From positions 1-64,000 of the forward strand of contig JACRNY010000003.1 of the NCBI GenBank assembly GCA_016214695.1: DNA of 64,000 bases, read 5' to 3'. Source of the stretch: Nitrosomonadales bacterium. GTDB lineage: Bacteria; Pseudomonadota; Gammaproteobacteria; Burkholderiales; Gallionellaceae. The notes below the pieces were generated by a model that did no database searches, was not told where the DNA came from, and saw only the letters and a list, made by a program, of their open reading frames with translations. Positions 22,719 to 55,444 of the stretch are shown here, piece after piece; position 1 is the stretch's first letter; every line of letters begins with the position of its first letter. A program made the position numbers and the translations under genes.

Positions 22719-24872
22719 CTAGAAGTCCCAGCGCACTCCGCCAGAAAGCGAATACCGCGTAGTCTTCGTGGTCACTTGAGGTCCGCTGTAATTGGTCAGC
22801 TCAAGACCGCCATCCACATCCAGGAAAATCTGCTCCTTGAGACGATATGAACCGCGCACCATGGGATAAGTGCGCTTGGTCGTCCCGCCGAGCTGGTCCT
22901 TCTGGTTATAGAGTTGCAGCGAGGCATCCATCATCCAGCCGCTGACGAACTGGCTGTGGTTATAGAAATATATCGAATTGCCCGTCGCCACACCCGAGCT
23001 GAAAGAGGTGCTGGCAGACCAGATGTCCCCCTCCCTGTAGAGGCCACTGCCGATGAGCTGCAAGGTCACCGCCTTTTCGGTGCCGCGGCCCGGCAATGCC
23101 GGTTGCGTACCCGCGGCCGGGGTACCAGGCACGCTGCTGGCGGTCAATCCCGTGGTATTGGACAGGCGCACATCGCCGCCGACCTGCCACTTGTCGCGCC
23201 AGGGCACGGTCAAGCCAAGCTGCCCCATGTTCGAGGTCGCAGTGCGCGCCAGCGCCAGATCGCGCAAGCTGCTTGCCGACATCGTCTGCAACAGGTCGTT
23301 GATGGACGATGTGGTCGCGCCGTTCAGCGCGGTGCGGATGCTCAGCGACGGCGTCTTGCGGTGATCGACCATGAAGTTCACCGTGCCGCCCAATGCACCG
23401 AGCGTTCCCATGAACTGAGCCGCGTTCACCGCCCTGAAGTAGGTGTCATAGTCCAGCAGGGCATAGGCCGTGTTCTTGTCTTCAAAGTAGCGCCACTCCG
23501 TACCCAGCGCACGACGATCGAGCGTCCCGTCCACGGTCTGGTTGATGCCGTAGAAAGAGAACGGCCCCTTGTCCACGCTGGCACCGACGAATCTGGGTTT
23601 GCTGCCTTGCGAGTAATCGGCCAGGGAACCCGCGACAGCGTTGTAACGCATGTCTTCCGGATTCCCGTAAGAACCCGCGAGTCCATCGAAACGGCCCAAC
23701 ACCCCGCCGCCGTAGGAGGATTGCCGCCCCACGCGCAACAGGTAATCCTGGGTGCGCCCCTTGATCTCACCATAAGCGGAATACACGCGATTCTGGCCGG
23801 ACTGGTTCGCCAGGAAATTCTTCGTGTTCACATCGCGAAACACCAGACGACCATCATATTCATCGCTGACGTAACGCTCGGAAGCATCCACGCTGGTGAT
23901 CAGCATCGACTGATCGGTCAGTGAGGTCGACGTCGTTTCCGATACGCCATTGAAGACCTGGGTCGACTCGATTTTGGACTTGCCATAGTAATAACGCGAG
24001 GAGAGACTGCCGAAGGTGGTCCAGCGCGCCTGCTGCTTTTTCTCGGCCGTCTCGACGATTCCCTGGTCCGCTCCCTGCCCGGACAAGCCGGCCAGTCGCT
24101 GTGCGACACGCGCCGCGCCCTCGTCATCCCGGTAGAGTCGCAGGTAGAGTTCGTATTCGATCTTGGCCCGTTCTTTCTGATCGGCCCGCTCGCGCGCCAC
24201 GCCCACCCATTCCTGCGCATCCTGGGTAAAATCATTGGGCGGCAACAGCAGCAGCTTGTTGAACGCCTCCACCGCAGCCTCATTGTTCTTGGCCGCCAGC
24301 GCATCGCGTCCCTGCACCATCAGTGCGCGCGCCTGCTTGTTGGTCTCGGCGATGGTCGTCTGCTCTGCGGTCGCCGTGGCAGCCGGAGCGGCAGCCTCCG
24401 GCTTGATTGTCGGCAGCAGGGGCAGCGCACCGGTGCTCACCGGCCGCTTCTGCGGCCGGATGGTCACCAGCAGCGTGCGATTGTCCTTGCCCGGCGCGAC
24501 GCTGTATTCCGCCTCGCGCGCGAACTCCACCACCAGCTTCGGTTTGGTCTTCTGGTCGCGCGTGGTCACTGTGAAACTGGGAATGAGTCCCGACGGCGGC
24601 GAGTTGCGTACCTCGCCGTCCACCCACGGCTCGTCGCTGGTCGCCCCTTTCACGCGTTCGTAAAAGATCTCCAGCGTATTGCCGTGGCTTTCGGGGAAGT
24701 GGCTCACATAGCGCACCGGTCCGGTCAGCCGGATGGTGGCAACGACGCCCTGATCCTGAAACTCGAGACTCACGTCATCCAGCGGCTGCGCGGACGCACT
24801 GCACGCGGCGGCGAATAGCAACACGAGACCGCTGATGCTACGGTATATCCACGAGAATAAGTTGCGAGACAT
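22719..24872 (-). CDS. Outer-membrane beta-barrel protein with N-terminal AMIN-like and TPR parts
   Basis: 717 residues. A signal peptide is present (SGLVLLFAAACSASAQ, cleaved near 29; an Ala-Cys could also suit a lipobox). Residues ~30-140 resemble an AMIN-type periplasmic beta domain, ~165-265 are TPR-like (ALMVQGRDALAAKNNEAAVE), and ~285-717 alternate polar/aromatic as in a barrel, ending in ...GGVRWDF with C-terminal Phe as for BAM substrates. It is the last gene after two multihaem cytochrome genes and a membrane cytochrome b. This suggests the porin of a trans-outer-membrane electron conduit, with the TPR as periplasmic docking part. It is not a clear MtrB/MtoB homologue by eye. Confidence 0.7.
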   Translation of the reverse strand: MSRNLFSWIYRSISGLVLLFAAACSASAQPLDDVSLEFQDQGVVATIRLTGPVRYVSHFPESHGNTLEIFYERVKGATSDEPWVDGEVRNSPPSGLIPSFTVTTRDQKTKPKLVVEFAREAEYSVAPGKDNRTLLVTIRPQKRPVSTGALPLLPTIKPEAAAPAATATAEQTTIAETNKQARALMVQGRDALAAKNNEAAVEAFNKLLLLPPNDFTQDAQEWVGVARERADQKERAKIEYELYLRLYRDDEGAARVAQRLAGLSGQGADQGIVETAEKKQQARWTTFGSLSSRYYYGKSKIESTQVFNGVSETTSTSLTDQSMLITSVDASERYVSDEYDGRLVFRDVNTKNFLANQSGQNRVYSAYGEIKGRTQDYLLRVGRQSSYGGGVLGRFDGLAGSYGNPEDMRYNAVAGSLADYSQGSKPRFVGASVDKGPFSFYGINQTVDGTLDRRALGTEWRYFEDKNTAYALLDYDTYFRAVNAAQFMGTLGALGGTVNFMVDHRKTPSLSIRTALNGATTSSINDLLQTMSASSLRDLALARTATSNMGQLGLTVPWRDKWQVGGDVRLSNTTGLTASSVPGTPAAGTQPALPGRGTEKAVTLQLIGSGLYREGDIWSASTSFSSGVATGNSIYFYNHSQFVSGWMMDASLQLYNQKDQLGGTTKRTYPMVRGSYRLKEQIFLDVDGGLELTNYSGPQVTTKTTRYSLSGGVRWDF

Positions 24873-24992: not shown

Positions 24993-26024
24993 TCAGGGAT
25001 TGTTCCACTGGTTGTATTGCACCGCATGGCAGGTGATGCAGTCCTGGCTGGTATTAGACCCTTCATGACTCCCCAAAGTCCTGGTACCTGTTACACCAAG
25101 GTAGGGAGAAGGCTTGTTGTGACAGGTCTTGCATGGCGGAGCAACATACGCATGCAAAGCCGCCCCCCTCGCCACTACGCCAACACCGATATGACAAGCC
25201 GTGCAACTCGTTCCGGCATTGTAAGGAATGTGGTTAGCCGGCTTGGCACCCAGCGCTGGCAGCCATGCCAAGGTGGAGTAGTGGCACTGATTGCATTCGT
25301 CTGTCGTGGCCGGGTGGATACCAGGCTTGCCTACAGCCAGAGCACCATTATGGCAGCTCGAGCAAGCACCGCCCGTGTTGTGCTTGAAGCGGTTCGGGTA
25401 CCAGCCGATATAGCTATGGCAAGAGTCGCATTCCAGCGTGTTTTTGAGTGTGGTTGCGGCATGCCCAGCCGGTTTGCGGTTCGGAATGGAAACTTCCGGA
25501 CTGCTTATATGGCAACTCGAACATGCGCCGATCGCTCCTGTGTGGTTCCAGCTAGCCGGCAACCACGAAGACGAACGATGGCAGCTATCGCAGGATTTCG
25601 TCGCCTTGTTCCCGGTGTTGTGCGTGGCAGGCTTGCTCATCGAGAGCCGGCCGTTGTGGCAGGAAGTGCATTGTCCCGGCATGGCCGTGCCGTGGCTATA
25701 GCGCGCACCGAGCCAGGTCGAGGTGTTGAAGTGACAGCTGTCGCAGGGGGCATCGGTGACGATGTGCGCGTTTGATTTGGGTGTCGCCAGGACACGCTTG
25801 CCTACGGCATGGCAGCCGTCGCAATTCTTGGGCGTTCCCTTGAACACTCCACCAACATGGCAGGATTCGCAGGCCGCCGTGGCATGCCCGCCGGAAAGCG
25901 GATAGCCGGTGGTCATGTGATTGAAGTCGCGACCGCCCAGCCGTGTCTCCGCTGCCGCCTGCAAGGAAGCAACGGTAAGCGCAACGGCGATCAAACTGCC
26001 AAATATTCGTCCTAGTCTCTTCAT
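24993..26024 (-). CDS. Dodecahaem c-type cytochrome
   Basis: 343 residues from ATG 26024 behind GGAGGGTGG. It has a signal peptide (IFGSLIAVALTVASLQAAAE) and twelve CXXCH haem motifs: CESCH, CDGCH, CDSCH, CTSCH, CDSCH, CSSCH, CDSCH, CSSCH, CNQCH, CTACH, CKTCH, CITCH. A repeated pattern, CxxCH followed by (S/T/A)W(L/Y)P...H and then CxxCHNG....GKP..H, suggests diheme modules with extra His as distal ligands. There is no lipobox or obvious membrane anchor. It is encoded between the 21-haem cytochrome and the outer-membrane barrel, consistent with a periplasmic or surface member of an extracellular electron transfer conduit. Confidence 0.9.
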   Translation of the reverse strand: MKRLGRIFGSLIAVALTVASLQAAAETRLGGRDFNHMTTGYPLSGGHATAACESCHVGGVFKGTPKNCDGCHAVGKRVLATPKSNAHIVTDAPCDSCHFNTSTWLGARYSHGTAMPGQCTSCHNGRLSMSKPATHNTGNKATKSCDSCHRSSSWLPASWNHTGAIGACSSCHISSPEVSIPNRKPAGHAATTLKNTLECDSCHSYIGWYPNRFKHNTGGACSSCHNGALAVGKPGIHPATTDECNQCHYSTLAWLPALGAKPANHIPYNAGTSCTACHIGVGVVARGAALHAYVAPPCKTCHNKPSPYLGVTGTRTLGSHEGSNTSQDCITCHAVQYNQWNNP

Positions 26025-26080
26025 GATCCACCCTCCGTAAAATATCCCATTCCTCTCCAACCGCTTGCTGCTACAACCTG

Positions 26081-27703
26081 TTATTTCTTGCTTGCTAACG
26101 GTTTCTTGTCGGCACCGACCACTCCCATCTTCACCTGCTTCCAATTATCCCCTTCGTGGCAGCGCTCGCAACGGTCCCCGAAACTGCCGTTGTGCACGTC
26201 GTCACGGTCATGGCAGCTGCTGCACGATTTAGTCAGCAACACTTTCTTGTCCATCGGCTTGGCATGGCACGAATAGCACTTGTTCGCCACTTTCTTGTGC
26301 GCCCCTCCCAGCTTGAAGTCGGTCTTGTCGTGGTTGAAGTCCCACGCCATCCAGTCGCGCGTGTTGTGGCAATCCTGGCACTCGGTGCCGAAACGCCGCT
26401 TGTGCACTTTCGCATCTTCCTTCTCGTGGCACGACCAGCAATCCGACTTGGCATCCTTGAAGGTCGGGGTTGCATGACACTTCTTGCAACTGACCAGGAT
26501 GTGGCGACCGAGCAAGGGGAAGGTCGACATCTTGTTATGGTCGAAGGTCGTCTTCGTCCAGGAATCGGCGCCATGGCACGACTCGCATTTCTTGCCTTCC
26601 TGGCCCTTGTGCTTGTCATCCTTCTCGTGGCAGGAGAAGCAATCGGTAGGCAGCTTGTCTTTGTAGATGTCGCCCTTGTGGCAACCCGTACACTTGAGCT
26701 TGGGGTCGGCATGCTTGCCGAGCAGCGGGAACTTGGTCTTGCCGTGGTCGAACTTGATCTCCTTCCAGTCTTTCTCGACGTGGCAGGACTCGCACTTGTT
26801 GCCGAATTTGCCCTTGTGCGCCTTGTCGTCTTCTTTTTTGTGGCAAGAGCTGCACTGCTTGGGCGTGTCCTTGAACTTGTTGTCGACATGGCACTTGGCG
26901 CACTTCACCTCGACGTGCTTGCCCAACAGCGGATACTTGGTGAGCTTGTCGTGATCGAACTTGACCTCTTTCCAGTCGCGATCGACGTGGCAAGTCTCGC
27001 ACTTGTTGCCCAGCTTGCCCTTGTGCGCCTTTTCGTCGTCCTTTTTATGGCATGACGCACACTGCTTCGGCGTTTCCTTGAACTTGTTGTCCAGGTGGCA
27101 CTTGTCGCACTTCACATCCTCGTGCTTGCCGCGCAGCTTGAAATCGAACTTGTCGTGGTCGACCGAGGTGGTTTTCCAGTCCTTTTCGCTGTGGCACTTG
27201 GCACAATCGGAACCCAGTTTCCCCTTGTGAGCCTTGTCATCGTCCTTCTTGTGGCACTCCACGCATTTGCCCGGCGCCTCGGAGTATTTCTTGCCTTGCT
27301 TGTGGCAATCCTCGCACTTCACCTTGGCGGTGTCAGCGTGTTTGCCTTTCAGCGCAAAATCGGTCTTGGCATGGTCGAAAGCGTTCTTGTCGAGAATGAC
27401 GATCTTGGCATCGCGCCCCTTGTGGTCGGTATGACACTCCTTGCAATCCTTACCCTCCTCGATGCGCCCGTGGTAACCGCGCTTCTCGGAGACGTCCTTA
27501 CCGACGTCCTTGTGGCAGTCGGTGCAAAGCCGGTTCTGGGCGGCCTTGTCGAATTTCTTGTGGCATTTTTCGCATGCCTCTTCTTCCTTGGCGTGCCCCT
27601 GAATGACCTCGCCCGGCATCAGCAGCTTGTTGGCCTGCGCCTGCAAGGGAAGGAACGCTAACAAGAGACCCGCAAGAGCGAGCGAGCGAAAGATCATCTT
27701 CAT
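26081..27703 (-). CDS. 21-haem c-type cytochrome made of seven tri-haem repeats
   Basis: 540 residues from ATG 27703 (MKMIFRS...QAQANK signal peptide). It holds 21 CXXCH motifs arranged as seven units of ~69 residues, each with three motifs. The typical unit runs KC.KCH.DNKFK.TPKQC.SCHKK.D.KAHKG, then GNKCE.CH...DWK.., FDHDK, and LLGKH. Every unit also keeps three non-CXXCH His (in KAHKG, FDH, GKH), matching bis-His ligation of three haems per unit. The protein is very Lys-rich. Repeat regularity suggests a linear haem wire. It lies 17 nt after the cytochrome b gene and 56 nt before the 12-haem gene. Periplasm-spanning or extracellular; which one is unknown. Confidence 0.92.
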   Translation of the reverse strand: MKMIFRSLALAGLLLAFLPLQAQANKLLMPGEVIQGHAKEEEACEKCHKKFDKAAQNRLCTDCHKDVGKDVSEKRGYHGRIEEGKDCKECHTDHKGRDAKIVILDKNAFDHAKTDFALKGKHADTAKVKCEDCHKQGKKYSEAPGKCVECHKKDDDKAHKGKLGSDCAKCHSEKDWKTTSVDHDKFDFKLRGKHEDVKCDKCHLDNKFKETPKQCASCHKKDDEKAHKGKLGNKCETCHVDRDWKEVKFDHDKLTKYPLLGKHVEVKCAKCHVDNKFKDTPKQCSSCHKKEDDKAHKGKFGNKCESCHVEKDWKEIKFDHGKTKFPLLGKHADPKLKCTGCHKGDIYKDKLPTDCFSCHEKDDKHKGQEGKKCESCHGADSWTKTTFDHNKMSTFPLLGRHILVSCKKCHATPTFKDAKSDCWSCHEKEDAKVHKRRFGTECQDCHNTRDWMAWDFNHDKTDFKLGGAHKKVANKCYSCHAKPMDKKVLLTKSCSSCHDRDDVHNGSFGDRCERCHEGDNWKQVKMGVVGADKKPLASKK

Positions 27704-27720
27704 CTGGTCACATCCGTCGA

Positions 27721-28617
27721 TTAATAGGCATGCACAGCATATACGTGGTAGACCGCGCTGAACACCATCATGTAGACCAGCGGAATGTGGAAGATATGCC
27801 ACATCGAGAACAAGCGTTCGTAGGTGTGGAACTGCGCCGCATCGCGCACTGCCTCAAGGAAGTCATCGATCTTGCCGCGGTACTCAGTGAACAGGGCTTC
27901 CATGCTTTGGCGTTGCGCAGCCGTGAAATGCTTCTCATCGGCCTGGGCATGCATGATTTTGCGCAATTCGCGCGTGAGCGTGAACGACAGCCATTTGGCG
28001 CGGATGCTCGACATGATGAAGTTGCCGAAGCCAAGTCCGGATGTCTTGCCGTATTTCTCTCCCGCGAGGCGGAAATCCTCCAGCGCCTTCTCGATACCGG
28101 GCGCAAAATGGAACGCGGACTTCACTTCGCCGGATTGCTCCAGCGCCGCCTTCAGTTCGTTCACTGTAGCCTGGCGACCGTACAAACCGTGGTGGATCTT
28201 GGTATAGAAGAAACGACCGAAAGTCCCGCTGCCCGACACCAGCAACATGCAGTACATGGCCACCGCCGCATTGATGGATCCGGTGGGATGTAAATAAGGG
28301 ATGTAAACGTGATAGGTGGAGTGGAAAACGATGGTCAGCGGACCCAGGATACCCAACACCATGTGCCATTTGAACCAAGTGGGCAGGAAACCGAAGTTCT
28401 CCAGAAACTTCCAGCGCTTGCGCAGGGGATAGAGCAGCAGGGTCAGCATCATCAATCCGCCAGCCAGACCGAGGTTATAGCCGAAATCGAAAAGCTCCTC
28501 ACCCGGCTTGTAGTAAGTCTGCGGATACACCACGAAATATCCGGCCACGGTGATGACCGCGACGATGCTGATGAATATCAGCCAAACCAGATGTTCCGAC
28601 CGTTTATTTGCCTTCAT
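27721..28617 (-). CDS. Inner-membrane b-type cytochrome (b561/ferric-reductase-like)
   Basis: 298 residues with about five membrane helices: IFISIVAVITVAGYFVVYP, LGLAGGLMMLTLLLYPL, a central WFKWHMVLGILGPLTIVFHS, a helix near 118-135, and a C-terminal pair with MWHIFHIPLVYMMVFSAVYH. His residues spaced within helices (WHM...FHSTYH; WHIFHIP...YH) are plausible haem b ligands. A soluble ~110-residue insertion lies between helices. It is the first gene of the cytochrome operon, so it could exchange electrons between the quinone pool and the periplasmic multihaem proteins. The exact family is unsure. Confidence 0.75.
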   Translation of the reverse strand: MKANKRSEHLVWLIFISIVAVITVAGYFVVYPQTYYKPGEELFDFGYNLGLAGGLMMLTLLLYPLRKRWKFLENFGFLPTWFKWHMVLGILGPLTIVFHSTYHVYIPYLHPTGSINAAVAMYCMLLVSGSGTFGRFFYTKIHHGLYGRQATVNELKAALEQSGEVKSAFHFAPGIEKALEDFRLAGEKYGKTSGLGFGNFIMSSIRAKWLSFTLTRELRKIMHAQADEKHFTAAQRQSMEALFTEYRGKIDDFLEAVRDAAQFHTYERLFSMWHIFHIPLVYMMVFSAVYHVYAVHAY

Positions 28618-28796: not shown

Positions 28797-28813
28797 CTTA
28801 AGTCTTGCTTAAG
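28797..28813 (+). promoter_or_regulatory. PmrA/QseB-type operator (CTTAAG-N5-CTTAAG)
   Basis: CTTAAGTCTTGCTTAAG: two CTTAAG half-sites exactly 11 bp apart, 46 bp before the ATG of the Fe-S/FAD oxidoreductase gene. It matches the CTTAA-N5-CTTAA direct-repeat box of PmrA/BasR/QseB regulators. The same box occurs before the diheme cytochrome gene (32887-32903), in the operon that encodes such a regulator. Since CTTAAG is self-complementary, binding could also affect the divergent cytochrome operon. Confidence 0.7.
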
Positions 28814-28858
28814 CAATTGGCCACATACTCGCAACCACATATTTTCCCGAACTCAATC

Positions 28859-30154
28859 ATGGATATCCTCGATCTTTCCATCTACCTGATCCCCCTGGCC
28901 ATCATCGCCTATATCTACCAGAGCGGCAGGAAAAGGAAGGAGAAGCAGGCGGTCGAAACGCTGAACGAATCCATCGAAGCCGGATTGACCGAACCGCCCT
29001 CCCTGCACCCGGAGATCAACCCCAATCTCTGCCTGGGTTCGGGCAGTTGCATCACAGCCTGCCCGGAAGGGGCGATCGGCATGATCAAGGGCAAGGCGGT
29101 GCTGGTCAACCCGACGCACTGCATCGGCCACGGCGCCTGTGCCGCAGCCTGCCCCCATGACGCGATCACCCTGGTGTTCGGCACCTCCAAGCGCGGCATG
29201 GACATCCCGCAGGTGAATCCTTCCTTCGAGACCAACGTCCCCGGCATCTTCATCGCCGGCGAGCTTGGCGGCATGGGCCTGATCCGCAAGGCCGCCACCC
29301 AGGGCACCCAGGCCATCGACAACATCGCCAAACTCAAGGACAGCAGCAGCCCTTATGATGTGGTCATCATCGGTGCCGGCCCGGCAGGCTTGTCCGCCAC
29401 ACTGGGCGCGATCGAGAAGAAACTGCGCTATGTCACCGTCGAACAGGAAACTTCGCTGGGCGGCTGCATCTTCCAGTACCCGCGCAACAAAGTCGTCATG
29501 ACCGCCCCGGTGAAACTGCCTGTGGTCGGCGAGATGCATTTCAAGGAAGTCAGCAAGGAGAAGCTGCTCGAATTCTGGCACGGCATCGTGGCAAAGACCG
29601 GCATGAAGCTCAACTTCAACGAGCGCATGGAAAACATCACCAAGACCGACAAGGGCTTCATCGTCAAGACCAGCAAAGGTTCTTACGAGACCCGCGCCAT
29701 ATTGCTCGCCATCGGTCGCCGCGGCACACCGCGCAAACTGGGGGTGCCCGGCGAGGATCTGCCGAAAGTGGTCTACCGGCTGATCGAGCCTGAGCAGTAC
29801 CGCAACCAGCATGTCGTCGTCGTGGGCGGCGGCGACAGCGCGCTGGAGGCCGCCATCGCGATCGCCGAACAGCCCGGCACCACAGTCACCCTCTCCTACC
29901 GCAGCGATGCGTTCGGACGCGGCAAGCCGAAGAACCGCGAACGCCTGAAAGCGATGACGGACAAAGGACGCATCGATGTGCGACTCAAATCCAACGTGAA
30001 GCTGGTCGAAAAAGACAAGGTCGTCATCGAACACGAAGGCAAGATGGTCGAGATGCCGAACGATGCCATCATCGTCTGCGCCGGCGGCATCCTGCCGACG
30101 CCGTTCCTCAAAGAGATCGGCGTATTGGTGGAGACCAAGTTCGGCACCGCCTGA
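28859..30154 (+). CDS. Ferredoxin-domain / FAD-NAD(P) oxidoreductase with altered Fe-S motifs
   Basis: 431 residues from ATG 28859; an upstream TTG frame start would overlap the operator. An N-terminal helix (IYLIPLAIIAYIY) anchors it to the membrane. Residues ~45-110 are a two-cluster ferredoxin-like domain, but both motifs lack the second Cys: CLGSGSCITACPEG and CIGHGACAAACPHD (C-x5-C-x3-CP). From ~165 it is a thioredoxin-reductase-like flavoprotein: VVIIGAGPAGLSAT (FAD), HVVVVGGGDSALEAA (NAD(P)), CAGGILPTPFL. No redox CxxC of thioredoxin reductase is seen. Divergent to the multihaem operon, it may pass electrons between NAD(P)H and quinone or cytochrome b, possibly in reverse flow during Fe(II) oxidation. 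The partner is inferred. Confidence 0.82.
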   Translation: MDILDLSIYLIPLAIIAYIYQSGRKRKEKQAVETLNESIEAGLTEPPSLHPEINPNLCLGSGSCITACPEGAIGMIKGKAVLVNPTHCIGHGACAAACPHDAITLVFGTSKRGMDIPQVNPSFETNVPGIFIAGELGGMGLIRKAATQGTQAIDNIAKLKDSSSPYDVVIIGAGPAGLSATLGAIEKKLRYVTVEQETSLGGCIFQYPRNKVVMTAPVKLPVVGEMHFKEVSKEKLLEFWHGIVAKTGMKLNFNERMENITKTDKGFIVKTSKGSYETRAILLAIGRRGTPRKLGVPGEDLPKVVYRLIEPEQYRNQHVVVVGGGDSALEAAIAIAEQPGTTVTLSYRSDAFGRGKPKNRERLKAMTDKGRIDVRLKSNVKLVEKDKVVIEHEGKMVEMPNDAIIVCAGGILPTPFLKEIGVLVETKFGTA

Positions 30155-30172
30155 CATCAGGACAGGCCGGCA

Positions 30173-31504
30173 TCACCGGCTGCCGAAAGTCACTGTCACG
30201 CATAGCCCGCGCCCCGTATCGGCGCGGGCGAAGACCACCTCGGCACCGTGCACTTCGGCGATCCGCCGCACGATGGACAAGCCCAATCCGCTCCCGCTCG
30301 CCTGCGTCTCCACCGGCCGGTAGAAACGCTCCGATATTTTGCTCAGTTCCTGCTCGGAGACGCCGGGGCCGTCATCGCACACCGACACGCCGACCACTCC
30401 CTTTATCGACTCGGTAGCGACCCGCACCATGGTGCCCGGTGTGGTATGCCGAACGGCATTGTCGAGCAGGTTGCGCATCAGGATACGCAGCAGTTCCGGG
30501 TTGCCCTGCACCGGCGCAGTATCCTGTGCATGCAATTCGATATGCACGCCTTTGCCCAAAGCCTCCGGCGCGATGACGGCGATCTCGCCGGCCGCGATCT
30601 CACTCAAACTGCATACCTCCGCCACTCCGGCGCCCGGCGCGTCGACACGCGCCAGCGTGAGCAGCTGTTCGATCAAGTGGGTGGCCCGATCGCAGCCCAG
30701 GATCGCGTTGTCGAGCGCATGGAGACGTTCCGCTTCAGCTGCGGCCTTGCGTGCCACCTGGGCTTGCGCCTTGATCGCCGCCACCGGCGTGCGCAATTCG
30801 TGCGCAGCATCCGCCGTGAAACGACGCTCGCGCTGGAAGGTGGCATCGATGCGGACAAAGAGCTGGTTGAGCCGCTCGATCAACGGCAACACCTCATGCG
30901 GTGCCGCTTCCGCATCGAGCGGCGACAGCGCCTCCGGGGCGCGCCGCTCCACCTCCGCCGCCAATCTGGCCAACGGGCGCAGGCCGCGCGCCACCGCCAC
31001 CCACAGCAACAACGCCAGCACAGGCAGCGAGATCAACAAGGGCTGCAGCAGGTTGCCCGCGATATCGCGCGCCATATCTTCACGCACATCGGCGCGCTCC
31101 GCCACGTGGATCAGGAACATGCCAGACTCATCCATCGAGGTGAATACGCGCCAGCGATGCCCGCCCATGGTGCTGTCGCTGAAGCCGGACTGGTTCACGG
31201 TCAGCGGCTGCGCACCCGCGTTCTCCGAATGCAGCCGCAGTCCGCCACCGATCTCCCAGATCTGGAAAGCCACCCGGCGCGAGTATTTATGCAGCAGCGG
31301 CGTGTGGTCGGTTTCAAGTTCAGTGAGTTCGTGCGTCGCCTGTGCCGCCAATAGCGATGCCTCCTGGGCCAGATGCCCGTCGAGCACCTCATCGAACTCC
31401 TCACGCGCATCGAAATAGATGAAAGCTGAAGCGCCAAGCCACACCAGCGCCACCGTCGCCAGCGACAAAAGCAGCAACCGCCGTTTCAATGAGTGCCCGT
31501 TCAT
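30173..31504 (-). CDS. Sensor histidine kinase (QseC/PmrB-like)
   Basis: 443 residues from ATG 31504, which follows the regulator stop by one base. Two membrane helices (~10-30 and ~158-178) flank a ~125-residue periplasmic sensor, then a HAMP-like linker, HisKA with phospho-acceptor His in TADAAHELRTPVAAIK (~245), and an HATPase domain with NLLDNAVRHT, DDGPGV and GSGLGLSIV. Together with the upstream regulator it forms a two-component system of the OmpR class. The periplasmic part lacks an obvious ExxE Fe(III) motif; the ligand is unknown. Confidence 0.93.
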   Translation of the reverse strand: MNGHSLKRRLLLLSLATVALVWLGASAFIYFDAREEFDEVLDGHLAQEASLLAAQATHELTELETDHTPLLHKYSRRVAFQIWEIGGGLRLHSENAGAQPLTVNQSGFSDSTMGGHRWRVFTSMDESGMFLIHVAERADVREDMARDIAGNLLQPLLISLPVLALLLWVAVARGLRPLARLAAEVERRAPEALSPLDAEAAPHEVLPLIERLNQLFVRIDATFQRERRFTADAAHELRTPVAAIKAQAQVARKAAAEAERLHALDNAILGCDRATHLIEQLLTLARVDAPGAGVAEVCSLSEIAAGEIAVIAPEALGKGVHIELHAQDTAPVQGNPELLRILMRNLLDNAVRHTTPGTMVRVATESIKGVVGVSVCDDGPGVSEQELSKISERFYRPVETQASGSGLGLSIVRRIAEVHGAEVVFARADTGRGLCVTVTFGSR

Positions 31505-31505
31505 C

Positions 31506-32174
31506 TCAGCTCGCCTTGTCTGCACTGATCAGATAGCCGACACCGCGTATGGTCTCGATGAGCTCGGGAAAGAGTTTGCGGCGCAGATGGTGGATGTGCA
31601 CTTCCACCGCATTGCTTTCAACCTCTTCGCCCCAGGCATAGAGCTGCTCTTCGAGCTGCGCGCGCGACATCACCTTCCCGGCATTCAGCATCAACGCATG
31701 CAGCACGGCGAATTCCTTCGGCGAAAGGTCGACTGACGCATCGAGATAATGCACGCGATGGGCGGCCGGATCGAGCTTCACTCCAGATGCCTGCAGCAAC
31801 AGATCGGTCTTGCCGCTGGCACGGCGTATCAGCGCCCGCAGACGCGCCGCCAGCTCGCCCATATCGAAGGGCTTGAGCAGATAGTCGTCGGCTCCGGCAT
31901 CCAGACCCTTGATGCGGTCGTTCACGGTATCCCGCGCGGTGAGGATCAGCACGGGAAGGGATGAGTTGCGACTGCGCAGGCGGCGCAGCACATCCAGTCC
32001 GGAAAGGCGCGGCAGCCCGAGGTCGAGCACGACCGCCGCATAGGATTCGGTGCCTAACGCCTGGTCTGCCGACACTCCGTCCTTCATCCAGTCGACCGCA
32101 TAGCCGGATTGCTTCAATCCCGCCTGGAGTGCATCGCCCAGCAAGGCATCATCTTCGACTACCAGTACGCGCAT
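31506..32174 (-). CDS. OmpR-family response regulator (QseB/PmrA type)
   Basis: 222 residues. Receiver domain with VVEDDALLGDALQAGL, phospho-Asp in VVLDLGLPRLSG (~51), switch Thr (LTARD) and Lys in DDYLLKPFD. The C-terminal winged helix ends HIHHLRRKLFPELIETIRGVGY. Its sequence is of the QseB/PmrA/TctD subgroup, whose members bind CTTAA-N5-CTTAA repeats; two such boxes occur in this window. The gene overlaps the kinase by near-contact and follows the diheme cytochrome gene by 154 nt, so the operon is probably autoregulated. Confidence 0.93.
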   Translation of the reverse strand: MRVLVVEDDALLGDALQAGLKQSGYAVDWMKDGVSADQALGTESYAAVVLDLGLPRLSGLDVLRRLRSRNSSLPVLILTARDTVNDRIKGLDAGADDYLLKPFDMGELAARLRALIRRASGKTDLLLQASGVKLDPAAHRVHYLDASVDLSPKEFAVLHALMLNAGKVMSRAQLEEQLYAWGEEVESNAVEVHIHHLRRKLFPELIETIRGVGYLISADKAS

Positions 32175-32328
32175 ATTTCACCCGATAAAACGGCACCTCG
32201 ATCATCATGCGGCTCTGCCTGCACAGGAGCTTCTTCTGCAGACATCGCACCGATCCCGGAACAAGCTGTCCGGAATATCCCCGGCTCGGGCAGCATTATG
32301 GCATCCAGCCAGACGCTGAGGCTCCCCC

Positions 32329-32835
32329 TCATTTTCCGGGCATGCGGATATTGCGCTCGCGGTAATCGCCACTCTCGGCCTTGGTATGGCAAGCCGCACA
32401 ATTGGCCGGACTCTTCACCTGCGGATTTTTCCAGATGCGATCCGGCACCTCGTCGTGTTCGCGGACGAACCAGCGCAACTCGCTGATGCGCAACTGCGGT
32501 TTCCCAGCCGGTTCCTGCTTTTGGGGGCCGGCATGTTTCTCAAGGAAAGCGCCGATCTCCCGCGCCACCGCCGGCTCCAGGCTGGCATCGGTACCGAAGT
32601 GCTTGTCCAGCCCGGCCATCATCGCGCGCCAGGATGCGGCAGGCAGCATACGCGGCGGGAAAGCGACATGACAGGATCCGCATTCGGATTGCCATCTGGC
32701 ATTGCTCACGACCACGCGACTACCATGCTCATGCTCGTCGCCTTCATGGTCATCCGCCTGCACGGAGCCGACCGCGCCGGCCAGCAGCGCAATCAGCGCG
32801 ATCATGCGCACTGTGTTTCGATCGATGGAATACAT
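32329..32835 (-). CDS. Diheme c-type cytochrome (DHC family-like)
   Basis: 168 residues, start behind a near-perfect AAAGGAGGTCACC site. A signal peptide (MIALIALLAGAVGSVQAD) is followed by a His/Glu-rich segment, CGSCH (~54) and a C-terminal CAACH (~147), separated by ~90 residues as in the DHC diheme family. DHC proteins are small periplasmic electron carriers, often paired with cytochrome b561. It precedes the response regulator and kinase genes on the same strand and has a PmrA/QseB-type box upstream, so the two-component system probably controls it. Confidence 0.85.
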   Translation of the reverse strand: MYSIDRNTVRMIALIALLAGAVGSVQADDHEGDEHEHGSRVVVSNARWQSECGSCHVAFPPRMLPAASWRAMMAGLDKHFGTDASLEPAVAREIGAFLEKHAGPQKQEPAGKPQLRISELRWFVREHDEVPDRIWKNPQVKSPANCAACHTKAESGDYRERNIRMPGK

Positions 32836-32886
32836 GGTGACCTCCTTTGGATTTGCATTACGATGGATGCAGGATAGGAGGCGAGA

Positions 32887-32903
32887 CTTAAGATAGCCTT
32901 AAG
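32887..32903 (-). promoter_or_regulatory. PmrA/QseB-type operator (CTTAAG-N5-CTTAAG)
   Basis: CTTAAGATAGCCTTAAG: identical half-sites with 5-bp spacing, 52 bp before the diheme cytochrome ATG; a third partial site CTTAAT follows 2 bp on. It matches the box at 28797-28813 and the known PmrA/BasR/QseB consensus. Probable autoregulation site for the cytochrome-regulator-kinase operon. Confidence 0.75.
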
Positions 32904-33862: not shown

Positions 33863-34001
33863 GGGGTCTCAAAAAATTCAAATTTCCAAGCCAGGCAAGG
33901 CGCGAGTAAAAAATTGCGACGCGGCATATGCCTTATATGTAAGGAGTAATTTTTTACGAGCAACGCAGCATAGCGACGAAATTTGGATTTTATGAGATTC
34001 C
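33863..34001. repeat. 139-bp imperfect palindrome filling the queE-queC gap
   Basis: The left arm begins GGGGTCTCAAAAAATTCAAA and the reverse complement of the right arm begins GGAATCTCATAAAATCCAAA. The arms stay alignable to the centre, sharing CAAATTTC and GTAAAAAATT. The apex contains GGCATATGCC and TTATATGTAAGG. It shows no coding potential and ends one base from queE and 5 bases from queC. A similar architecture precedes metG (61036-61157). Confidence 0.8.
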
Positions 34002-54558: not shown

Positions 54559-54733
54559 GATGATCTCCTGTCTGTTGTGATGTGTACTCTCTGATCAGGT
54601 GCTTGCCTGACGAGTGCATATTGCGACATCTCCGTTGCCCGACGATTTCCGTGTTGTAGCAAATTGTAACGATGTGTTACACGAACCATGGCGGCGCAGA
54701 CAGCGGCAGCGGCCCTCGGGTATAGTAATCCTC

Positions 54734-55444
54734 ATGGACGGAAAAAACATTCTGGTCGTGGACGACGATGCAGGTCTGCGCGACCTGTTGCAGGAGTATC
54801 TGACGGCGCAGGGCTTCGAGGTCGCCACCGTCGCGGACGGCATCGCCATGGAGGCACACCGGGCAGATCATCCGGTCGACCTGGTCATCCTCGATCTGAT
54901 GTTGCCGGGAGAGGACGGCTTGTCGCTGGCACGCAAGCTGCGAGCACAGGGCGATCTGCCCATCATCATGCTTTCGGCGCGCGGCGAAGATGTCGACCGC
55001 ATCGTCGGACTGGAGGTGGGTGCAGACGACTATCTGGCCAAGCCCTTCAACCCGCGCGAACTGCTGGCACGCATCCGCGCCCTGCTGCGCCGCAGTGACA
55101 GCGGCCACGAGGCGAACGCTACGGCACGCGCCAGCCAGCGCTTCGGCGAATTCCTGCTCAACCTCGACACTCACGACCTGTACAAGAACGGCGAGAACAT
55201 CCCCCTGACCGCCGGCGAATTCAACCTGCTGCGCATCTTCGTCGAACACCCCAACCGCGTATTGAGCCGCGACAGCATCATGGACATGCTCAAAGGCTAC
55301 GAACGCTCGCCCTTGGATCGCAGCATCGATGTGCGGGTCACACGGCTGCGCCGCAAGATCGAAAGCGATCCCAACAATCCGCTGCACATCCGCACCGTAT
55401 GGGGCGAAGGTTATCTGTTCGCGTCCGGCAACGAGCGTCCCTGA
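54734..55444 (+). CDS. OmpR-family response regulator
   Basis: 236 residues from ATG 54734 (MDGKNILVVDDDAGLRDLL). Phospho-Asp in LVILDLMLPGEDG (~55), LSARGED, DDYLAKPFNPRELL; C-terminal winged helix with SPLDRSIDVRVTRLRRKIE. Sequence is closer to OmpR than to QseB. The kinase gene starts 2 bases after its stop. An upstream frame from 54614 is rejected because the receiver begins at this Met. Confidence 0.94.
   Translation: MDGKNILVVDDDAGLRDLLQEYLTAQGFEVATVADGIAMEAHRADHPVDLVILDLMLPGEDGLSLARKLRAQGDLPIIMLSARGEDVDRIVGLEVGADDYLAKPFNPRELLARIRALLRRSDSGHEANATARASQRFGEFLLNLDTHDLYKNGENIPLTAGEFNLLRIFVEHPNRVLSRDSIMDMLKGYERSPLDRSIDVRVTRLRRKIESDPNNPLHIRTVWGEGYLFASGNERP

Follow-up and report, generated by a model that had tools for sequence, protein, structure and literature searches.

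What regulates the electron-transfer genes in the window analysed here, a stretch of 64,000 nucleotides from a Nitrosomonadales bacterium of the family Gallionellaceae (assembly GCA_016214695.1, contig JACRNY010000003.1, positions 1 to 64,000)? The question is raised by two boxes, each composed of two CTTAAG half-sites separated by 5 bp, one of which lies between a Fe-S/FAD oxidoreductase gene and a multihaem cytochrome operon and the other ahead of an operon for a dihaem cytochrome c (DHC), a response regulator and a sensor kinase. We consider it likely that these boxes are binding sites of this response regulator, which would activate its own operon and a few redox genes. The argument is drawn from sequence, namely from the boxes, their rarity, spacing and conservation with the regulator, the DNA-contact residues of the regulator and the geometry of the promoters. 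The features on which it turns are as follows.

28797..28813, no strand assigned: box 1, CTTAAG-TCTTG-CTTAAG, located where the Fe-S/FAD gene and the multihaem operon diverge
32887..32903, no strand assigned: box 2, CTTAAG-ATAGC-CTTAAG on the plus strand, an exact sequence match
32329..32835, minus strand: DHC, the first gene of the operon (PF09626, 135 bits)
31506..32174, minus strand: PmrA/QseB-type response regulator of the OmpR family (domain search and alignment)
30173..31525, minus strand: QseC-type sensor histidine kinase (2CSK_N, HisKA and HATPase_c domains), overlapping the regulator gene by 20 bp

Both boxes were found with 0 mismatches at exactly the positions given by the original prediction, and the 11-bp periodicity that it described for the repeat is correct. 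Its description of the two as identical 17-bp boxes holds for the 12 half-site bases, which are equal, and fails for the 5-bp spacers (TCTTG versus ATAGC). Because the half-sites are palindromic, box 2 can be read as a box from either strand. The placement of the boxes was also described correctly: box 1 is flanked by the start of the Fe-S/FAD gene at 28859 (plus strand) on one side and by the start of the multihaem operon at 28617 (minus strand) on the other, and box 2 lies 51 bp ahead of the DHC gene that heads the regulator-kinase operon. CTTAAG occurs six times in the window, and four of these occurrences are inside the two boxes. From the density outside the boxes (2 per 64 kb, a thin basis), 0.0026 exact boxes would be expected genome-wide, whereas a scan of the 2.66-Mb genome detected 4 exact, 1 one-mismatch and 13 two-mismatch sites. 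Where two CTTAAG copies lie 0–30 bp apart in this genome (4 pairs), the gap is 5 bp in every case, with no pair at any of the 30 other gap lengths in this range. The distribution of the box in the genome is therefore non-random.

SHP/DHC/CytB operons with a QseC-type kinase (SK2) have been described by Meyer, Kyndt and Cusanovich in 2010 (PMC2909971), the main text of which does not contain the words box, CTTAA or PmrA. The window operon, in which DHC, a QseC-type kinase and the regulator are encoded together, is a trimmed version of such an operon; it lacks SHP (PF09086) and CytB, both of which are found in a boxed CytB-SHP-DHC operon at another site of the same genome (C2:6365). Of the 34 nearest named loci, 25 have SHP, DHC and CytB together with the regulator and kinase, and in six, as in the window, DHC has been kept with the regulator and kinase though SHP has gone from the operon. 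Among the 80 named loci, in which genes were called by similarity only, 33 have a regulator of at least 72% identity; 30 of these were evaluable, and 29 have SHP, DHC or CytB upstream. A box with at most one mismatch is present at 26 of these 29 operon heads, in line with the exact box in the window and with the original prediction that the regulator's own operon carries the box, and a box with at most two mismatches is present at 28. At the same heads, each of twelve other gap lengths was found in 0–1 of 29. For regulators of 57–68% identity, a box with at most one mismatch was found at 10 of 28 operons and at 1 of 16 loci without the operon; the two identity bins hold 79 of the 80 loci, the one that falls between them having been dropped. 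Two loci that were scored as box-less on account of a misplaced operon start (L100 and L102) have an exact box immediately ahead of the SHP or DHC gene. At the genome level, an exact box is present in 40 of the 55 Gallionellaceae genomes with the regulator (at least 72% identity) versus 9 of the 95 without it (P = 1.5e-15), with the reservation, to be set against our reading here and below, that the Fisher tests count related genomes as independent. All of the seven opened regulator-bearing genomes that lack an exact head box have a one-mismatch head box.

The position of the boxes relative to putative −10 elements is a further line of evidence.

32871..32876, minus strand: TATCCT, a −10 element on the DHC side of box 2 at a distance of 10 bp, an arrangement likewise found in most of 28 related heads
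28824..28829, plus strand: CATACT, a −10-like hexamer on the Fe-S/FAD side of box 1 at a distance of 10 bp, with the spacing and hexamer of the E. coli pmrR box

The consensus of 28 operon heads is CTTAAG-N5-CTTAAG-N10-TATCCT, and the corresponding sequence of E. coli pmrR, which we take to be a PmrA target, is CTTAAGGTTCACTTAAT-N10-CATACT. The CATACT after box 1 is not kept in the nearest relatives.

The regulator shares 50% sequence identity with E. coli QseB and 45% with BasR. It belongs to the OmpR family and scores closest to PmrA and QseB, in both cases under the NCBIfam cut-offs (250.4 versus 330 for PmrA and 250.0 versus 345 for QseB). Eight PmrA residues have been reported to hydrogen-bond DNA (PMC3973317), and seven of them (K153, R171, N188, H193, H195, R198 and R210) are identical in the window regulator, the eighth, T187, being Ser. 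Among 95 aligned regulators, N188 and H195 are present in 94 each and H193 in 81; at position 153, 49 have Lys and 46 have Arg. Together with the two half-sites and their 5-bp gap, the seven contact residues support the proposal that the regulator and the box are of the PmrA/QseB type. The genome encodes five OmpR-type regulators, and the helix EVHIHHLR is unique to that of the window operon. The window contains a second OmpR-type response regulator (54614–55444), which is 34% identical to the first and lacks a PmrA-type recognition helix. In a tree of 54 regulator rows, 32 rows, mostly SHP-operon regulators, cluster in a branch that excludes QseB and BasR (support 95/87), although the E. coli rows are long-branched and two SHP-operon rows (L110 and L125) fall outside this branch.

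The system resembles two known ones without being identical to either. Like the PmrA/BasR box of enterobacteria, the box consists of two CTTAAG/CTTAAT-like half-sites with a 5-bp gap, and box 1 shares the box-N10-CATACT arrangement of pmrR; unlike in PmrA/BasR, the kinase is not PmrB-like and the targets are redox genes. The likeness to QseB/QseC (PreA/PreB, FirRS) includes the kinase, which is 38% identical to QseC, the 2CSK_N sensor and a nearly identical recognition helix, and a one-mismatch box adjoins E. coli qseB. However, the window pair lies in both members under the NCBIfam cut-offs, its regulator belongs to the branch of mostly SHP-operon regulators, and its neighbours are DHC and the Fe-S/FAD gene instead of ygiW and mdaB. 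Overexpressed PreA (QseB) of Salmonella is reported to raise expression of a cytochrome b561 gene 372-fold, as measured by quantitative reverse transcription PCR, and that of mdaB (quinone reductase) 32.5-fold (PMC2653508), so the PmrA/QseB family has a precedent for redox targets. The claim of a new use of the family must therefore be narrowed: the link to redox genes is supported by sequence, but such targets (PMC2653508) and the SHP/DHC operon with a QseC-type kinase (PMC2909971) had already been published.

The kinase is similar to QseC over its full length and contains a 2CSK_N periplasmic sensor domain (PF08521, 56.9 bits versus a cut-off of 23.2); its NCBIfam scores are under the cut-offs for QseC (320.2 versus 475) and PmrB (195.8 versus 314). 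PmrB-type Fe(III) sensors have a short periplasmic loop with ExxE metal motifs. In the window kinase, the periplasmic loop is long; EFDE, which follows the first membrane helix, and ELTE are present, but ExxE is frequent across this acidic stretch. The suggestion of PmrB-like Fe(III) sensing finds no support in this kinase, which is of the QseC type with a large 2CSK_N domain. A DVRED sequence of the kinase aligns with EYRED of QseC in a stretch that is variable among orthologues; RExxE, HExxE and DYRED are cited as iron-sensing motifs (PMC9769818), and the QseBC system of Haemophilus is reported to respond to Fe(II), zinc and cold and not to Fe(III) (PMC12737762). By analogy with these motifs and with the Haemophilus precedent, an iron signal for the kinase is possible.

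Which other genes might belong to the regulon? At C2:6365, an exact box lies 56 bp upstream of a cytochrome b561 gene (PF01292), which is followed by an unknown gene, SHP (DUF1924) and DHC, with a DUF898 gene next. A one-mismatch box is located ahead of a second cytochrome b561 gene (C2:1051591), and another box ahead of pntA (C3:88923); G003 has a box in the same pntA gap, and the PntA domains were identified on the G003 copy. Among these five sites, including both window boxes, four are ahead of electron-transfer genes and the fifth is ahead of the transhydrogenase gene. A search of the genome with the whole promoter, allowing 3 mismatches, yielded three sites with at most one mismatch, the others being chance-like. 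A box between the gene of a Cys-rich, TAT-signal-like protein and pntA was seen in two genomes (L069, position 2924; L059, position 3197).

The operon at C2:6365 offers a possible link between the box and iron. Its gene order (cytochrome b, hypothetical, monohaem DUF1924/SHP and dihaem cytochrome) is that of the Fe(II)-responsive cluster Slit_1321–1324, or ircABCD, of strain ES-1 (PMC8788666, PMC12442390, PMC10734462), from which the locus differs in having DUF898 instead of Hsp33 next to it. The irc cluster is reported to be up with Fe(II) in ES-1 (PMC8788666) and with iron-oxidising ability in CL21, where irc and a PCC3 membrane protein are co-induced (PMC12442390). In G028, which has Hsp33 next to its irc-type cluster, the region upstream of the cluster contains a two-mismatch box followed by N10-TATAGT. 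Matches were obtained in 109 genomes, of which the 46 with at least 50% identity were compared; five of the 46, including G075, re-align at 37–49%. Ahead of the irc-type cytochrome b, a box with no more than one mismatch is present in 7 of the 18 genomes with the regulator versus none of the 28 without it (P = 0.0006). G075 is a distant match with its box between the cytochrome b and regulator genes, and its removal leaves 6 of 17 versus 0 of 28 (P = 0.0015). The passages and word counts available from PMC5566968, PMC8788666, PMC10734462 and PMC12442390 name no regulator for either PCC3 or the irc cluster, and the main texts of the last three do not contain the term "SHP".

Box 1 lies between the following genes.

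28859..30154, plus strand: Fe-S/FAD oxidoreductase gene (4Fe-4S domain and pyridine-nucleotide-disulphide oxidoreductase fold; Pfam Pyr_redox_3 and Fer4_7)
27721..28617, minus strand: PCC3/PCC4-type inner-membrane protein from the multihaem operon (SGXXG and two WX3HX13H motifs, as published in PMC5566968; no Pfam match)
26081..27802, minus strand: multihaem cytochrome with 21 CXXCH motifs (frame taken from a GTG farther upstream; the true start is probably later)
24993..26144, minus strand: multihaem cytochrome with 12 CXXCH motifs (motif count)
22719..24872, minus strand: putative outer-membrane porin of 717 aa (by cluster position only; no Pfam match)

Judging from the inner-membrane protein motifs, the two multihaem cytochromes and the gene in the position of a porin, this operon appears to fit PCC3 (He et al. 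2017, PMC5566968), the main text of which contains neither regulat- nor two-component. No match to MtrB/PioB (PF11854) was found in the genome, a weak negative since none of 14 control genomes passes the cut-off. The Fe-S/FAD gene is present in 64 of the 150 Gallionellaceae genomes, and its co-occurrence with the regulator is weak (29 of 55 versus 35 of 95, P = 0.06). The whole gap upstream of the Fe-S/FAD gene could be examined in 60 genomes, excluding G001, G062, G087 and G147, and a gap box with at most one mismatch was found in 8 of the 29 with the regulator (G005 among them) versus 0 of the 31 without it (P = 0.0017). In an alignment of the window gap with those of two relatives (three distinct sequences), all 12 half-site positions are invariant, compared with 2 of the 5 spacer positions and 113 of the 272 other columns, and no other alignment segment among 235 is as invariant as the half-sites of box 1.

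In relatives, exact or near-exact boxes are associated with additional redox genes. In three of them (L054, 2251–3255; L215, 2761–3762; L219, 683–1693), a box is followed after approximately 200 bp by a di-haem cytochrome c peroxidase gene, and the genomes G156 and G158, which have a boxed peroxidase gene, lack the regulator at 72%. A boxed gene for a FAD/NAD/2Fe-2S protein followed by a multihaem cytochrome gene was found in three genomes (L043, L046 and L053), and other boxed multihaem cytochromes in L223 and L231; no clear target gene was seen at the boxes of L040, L045, L052 and L060. These genes fit periplasmic redox control, within which a role in oxidative stress is as conceivable as one linked to iron. 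As separate observations, a box lies between two multihaem cytochrome genes of a second PCC3-like cluster in two genomes (L229, position 2528; L231, position 2513), and two genomes have a regulator-kinase pair of 62–63% identity with boxes nearby (L214 and L220, also L213 and L221); the pair at L220 adjoins a multihaem cytochrome gene and is perhaps a duplicated version of the switch. Exact boxes were also seen beside an outer-membrane efflux gene in four relatives (L048, L049, L050 and L055), with a QseB-like paralogue approximately 6 kb from the efflux gene in three (G012, G023 and G029); a second system that uses the box may thus exist. Beyond box 2, a 131-bp imperfect inverted repeat lies at 33868–33998 of the window, in the space that separates a queC-like gene from the gene after it (names assigned by eye). 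It is MITE-like, has seven copies in the genome with 82–100% identity and folds better than 200 of 200 shuffled sequences.

We propose the following mechanism. The QseC-type kinase, which may read periplasmic iron or a redox or oxygen-related signal, would phosphorylate the regulator, and the phosphorylated regulator would bind the two half-sites over the −35 region, presumably as a head-to-tail dimer as in PmrA. The bound regulator would then activate promoters in which, as a rule, 10 bp separate the box from the −10 element downstream of it. Box 2 would mediate activation of the regulator's own DHC-regulator-kinase operon, and box 1 that of the Fe-S/FAD gene, of the multihaem operon of PCC3 type or of both. 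Other targets in the same genome would be the cytochrome b561-SHP-DHC operon (C2:6365) and the second cytochrome b561 gene (C2:1051591). A more specific version, in which this two-component system of iron-oxidising Gallionellaceae senses periplasmic electron flow driven by Fe(II), perhaps with DHC as part of the sensor, and switches on irc/SHP carriers together with the PCC3 conduit, is quite unlikely to hold.

Several observations weigh against reading the boxes as sites of the window regulator, and some of them would suit an origin of the boxes by chance or sequence bias. Within the window, sites with up to 3 mismatches show no excess (5 found versus 6.8 expected), so only exact or near-exact sites were counted; in the genome, the reversed pattern outnumbers the box, both at up to 2 mismatches (69 versus 18) and among pairs with gaps of 0–30 bp (16 versus 4). 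The reversed pattern was dropped as a matched control because GAATTC is commoner in this genome, and gap length was used in its place. At a 5-bp gap, exact GAATTC pairs number 1 versus 4 for the box in this genome and 8 versus 40 across 61 genomes. Given the exact sites, their single gap length, their conservation and their co-occurrence with the regulator, we regard a chance origin as extremely improbable. It is also very unlikely, in our judgement, that the boxes are bound by a different OmpR-type regulator. A paralogue of 48% identity with the helix EVYIHRLR is encoded at C2:824.5 kb, and the QseB-like paralogue near boxed efflux genes elsewhere in the family would favour such a regulator; yet the former has Tyr for His193 of PmrA and no site with at most 2 mismatches within 3 kb around it, and the boxes track the window-type regulator. 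A point against this tracking is that 9 of the 49 box-bearing genomes lack the regulator at 72%; boxed peroxidase genes occur in three genomes, and two of these are among the nine. Further counterpoints concern single targets: the pntA box overlaps the stop codon of the Cys-rich protein gene and is followed by a hairpin-like stretch, the full-promoter scores of the irc-like site (−3.4) and of the pntA site (−0.4) are not above the random background, the best −10 element of the irc-like site is at N11 and not at N10, and in G023 no box was found at irc or at the one PCC3-type gap examined.

The role of box 1 and the purpose of the regulon can be questioned even if the regulator does bind its own operon. 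Box 2 could be the only functional one, with box 1 a relic or serving the Fe-S/FAD gene alone and the multihaem operon outside the regulon. The gap is box-less in 21 of the 29 regulator-bearing genomes that have the Fe-S/FAD gene, including four in which the regulator adjoins (G016, G020, G025 and G030), which also counts against our reading, as does the score of the Fe-S/FAD-directed promoter of box 1 (8.7), which exceeds the random 99th percentile (6.7) and remains below the random maximum (9.8). Moreover, the N10 CATACT faces the Fe-S/FAD gene, the N10 hexamer on the multihaem side being a poor CTTGAA. However, the multihaem-directed score in the window is higher (11.3), the conserved block adjoining box 1 sits on the multihaem side, and gap boxes of relatives are accompanied by multihaem-facing promoters that are strong in G003 (38.2) and G010 (26.6) and read CTTAAGCAGGAATTAAG-N10-AATAAT in G005; that of G152 (34.2) has the same direction, on a contig that ends before the next gene. 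We consider this alternative rather unlikely. A more serious alternative, plausible although we give it somewhat less than an even chance, retains the regulator and boxes and, in place of iron oxidation or extracellular electron transfer, assigns to the regulon a defence of the periplasm against peroxide, nitric oxide or oxygen radicals. Boxes lie ahead of cytochrome b561 genes in this genome, one of which we assume to resemble superoxide oxidase, and ahead of the peroxidase genes of three relatives. SHP, a c-type cytochrome that binds oxygen, reportedly oxidises NO (PMC2909971), and in ES-1 both PCC3 clusters are reported to be down on Fe(II) (PMC8788666), the latter being a further point against our reading. 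On the other hand, the irc cluster, which has the make-up of an SHP operon, responds to Fe(II) and to iron-oxidising ability as described above, multihaem clusters recur among the box targets, and G156 and G158 have boxed peroxidase genes without the regulator.

On the reading that we favour, in which the boxes are sites of the window regulator, a candidate regulator with a defined box and promoter can be proposed for the irc cluster and PCC3 of neutrophilic iron oxidisers. New here is the occurrence of the box in Gallionellaceae in the gap between the Fe-S/FAD gene and the PCC3-type multihaem operon and ahead of an operon that matches irc. This joins two literatures, that on the Fe(II)-responsive irc genes and that on the SHP/DHC/CytB operon of purple bacteria; because the irc genes share the make-up of the latter, the prediction for the monohaem IrcB is a cytochrome of the SHP type that may bind oxygen. 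The PmrA/QseB family is known from antimicrobial-peptide resistance and virulence, and our results suggest that one of its branches is environmental and controls electron transfer in the periplasm.

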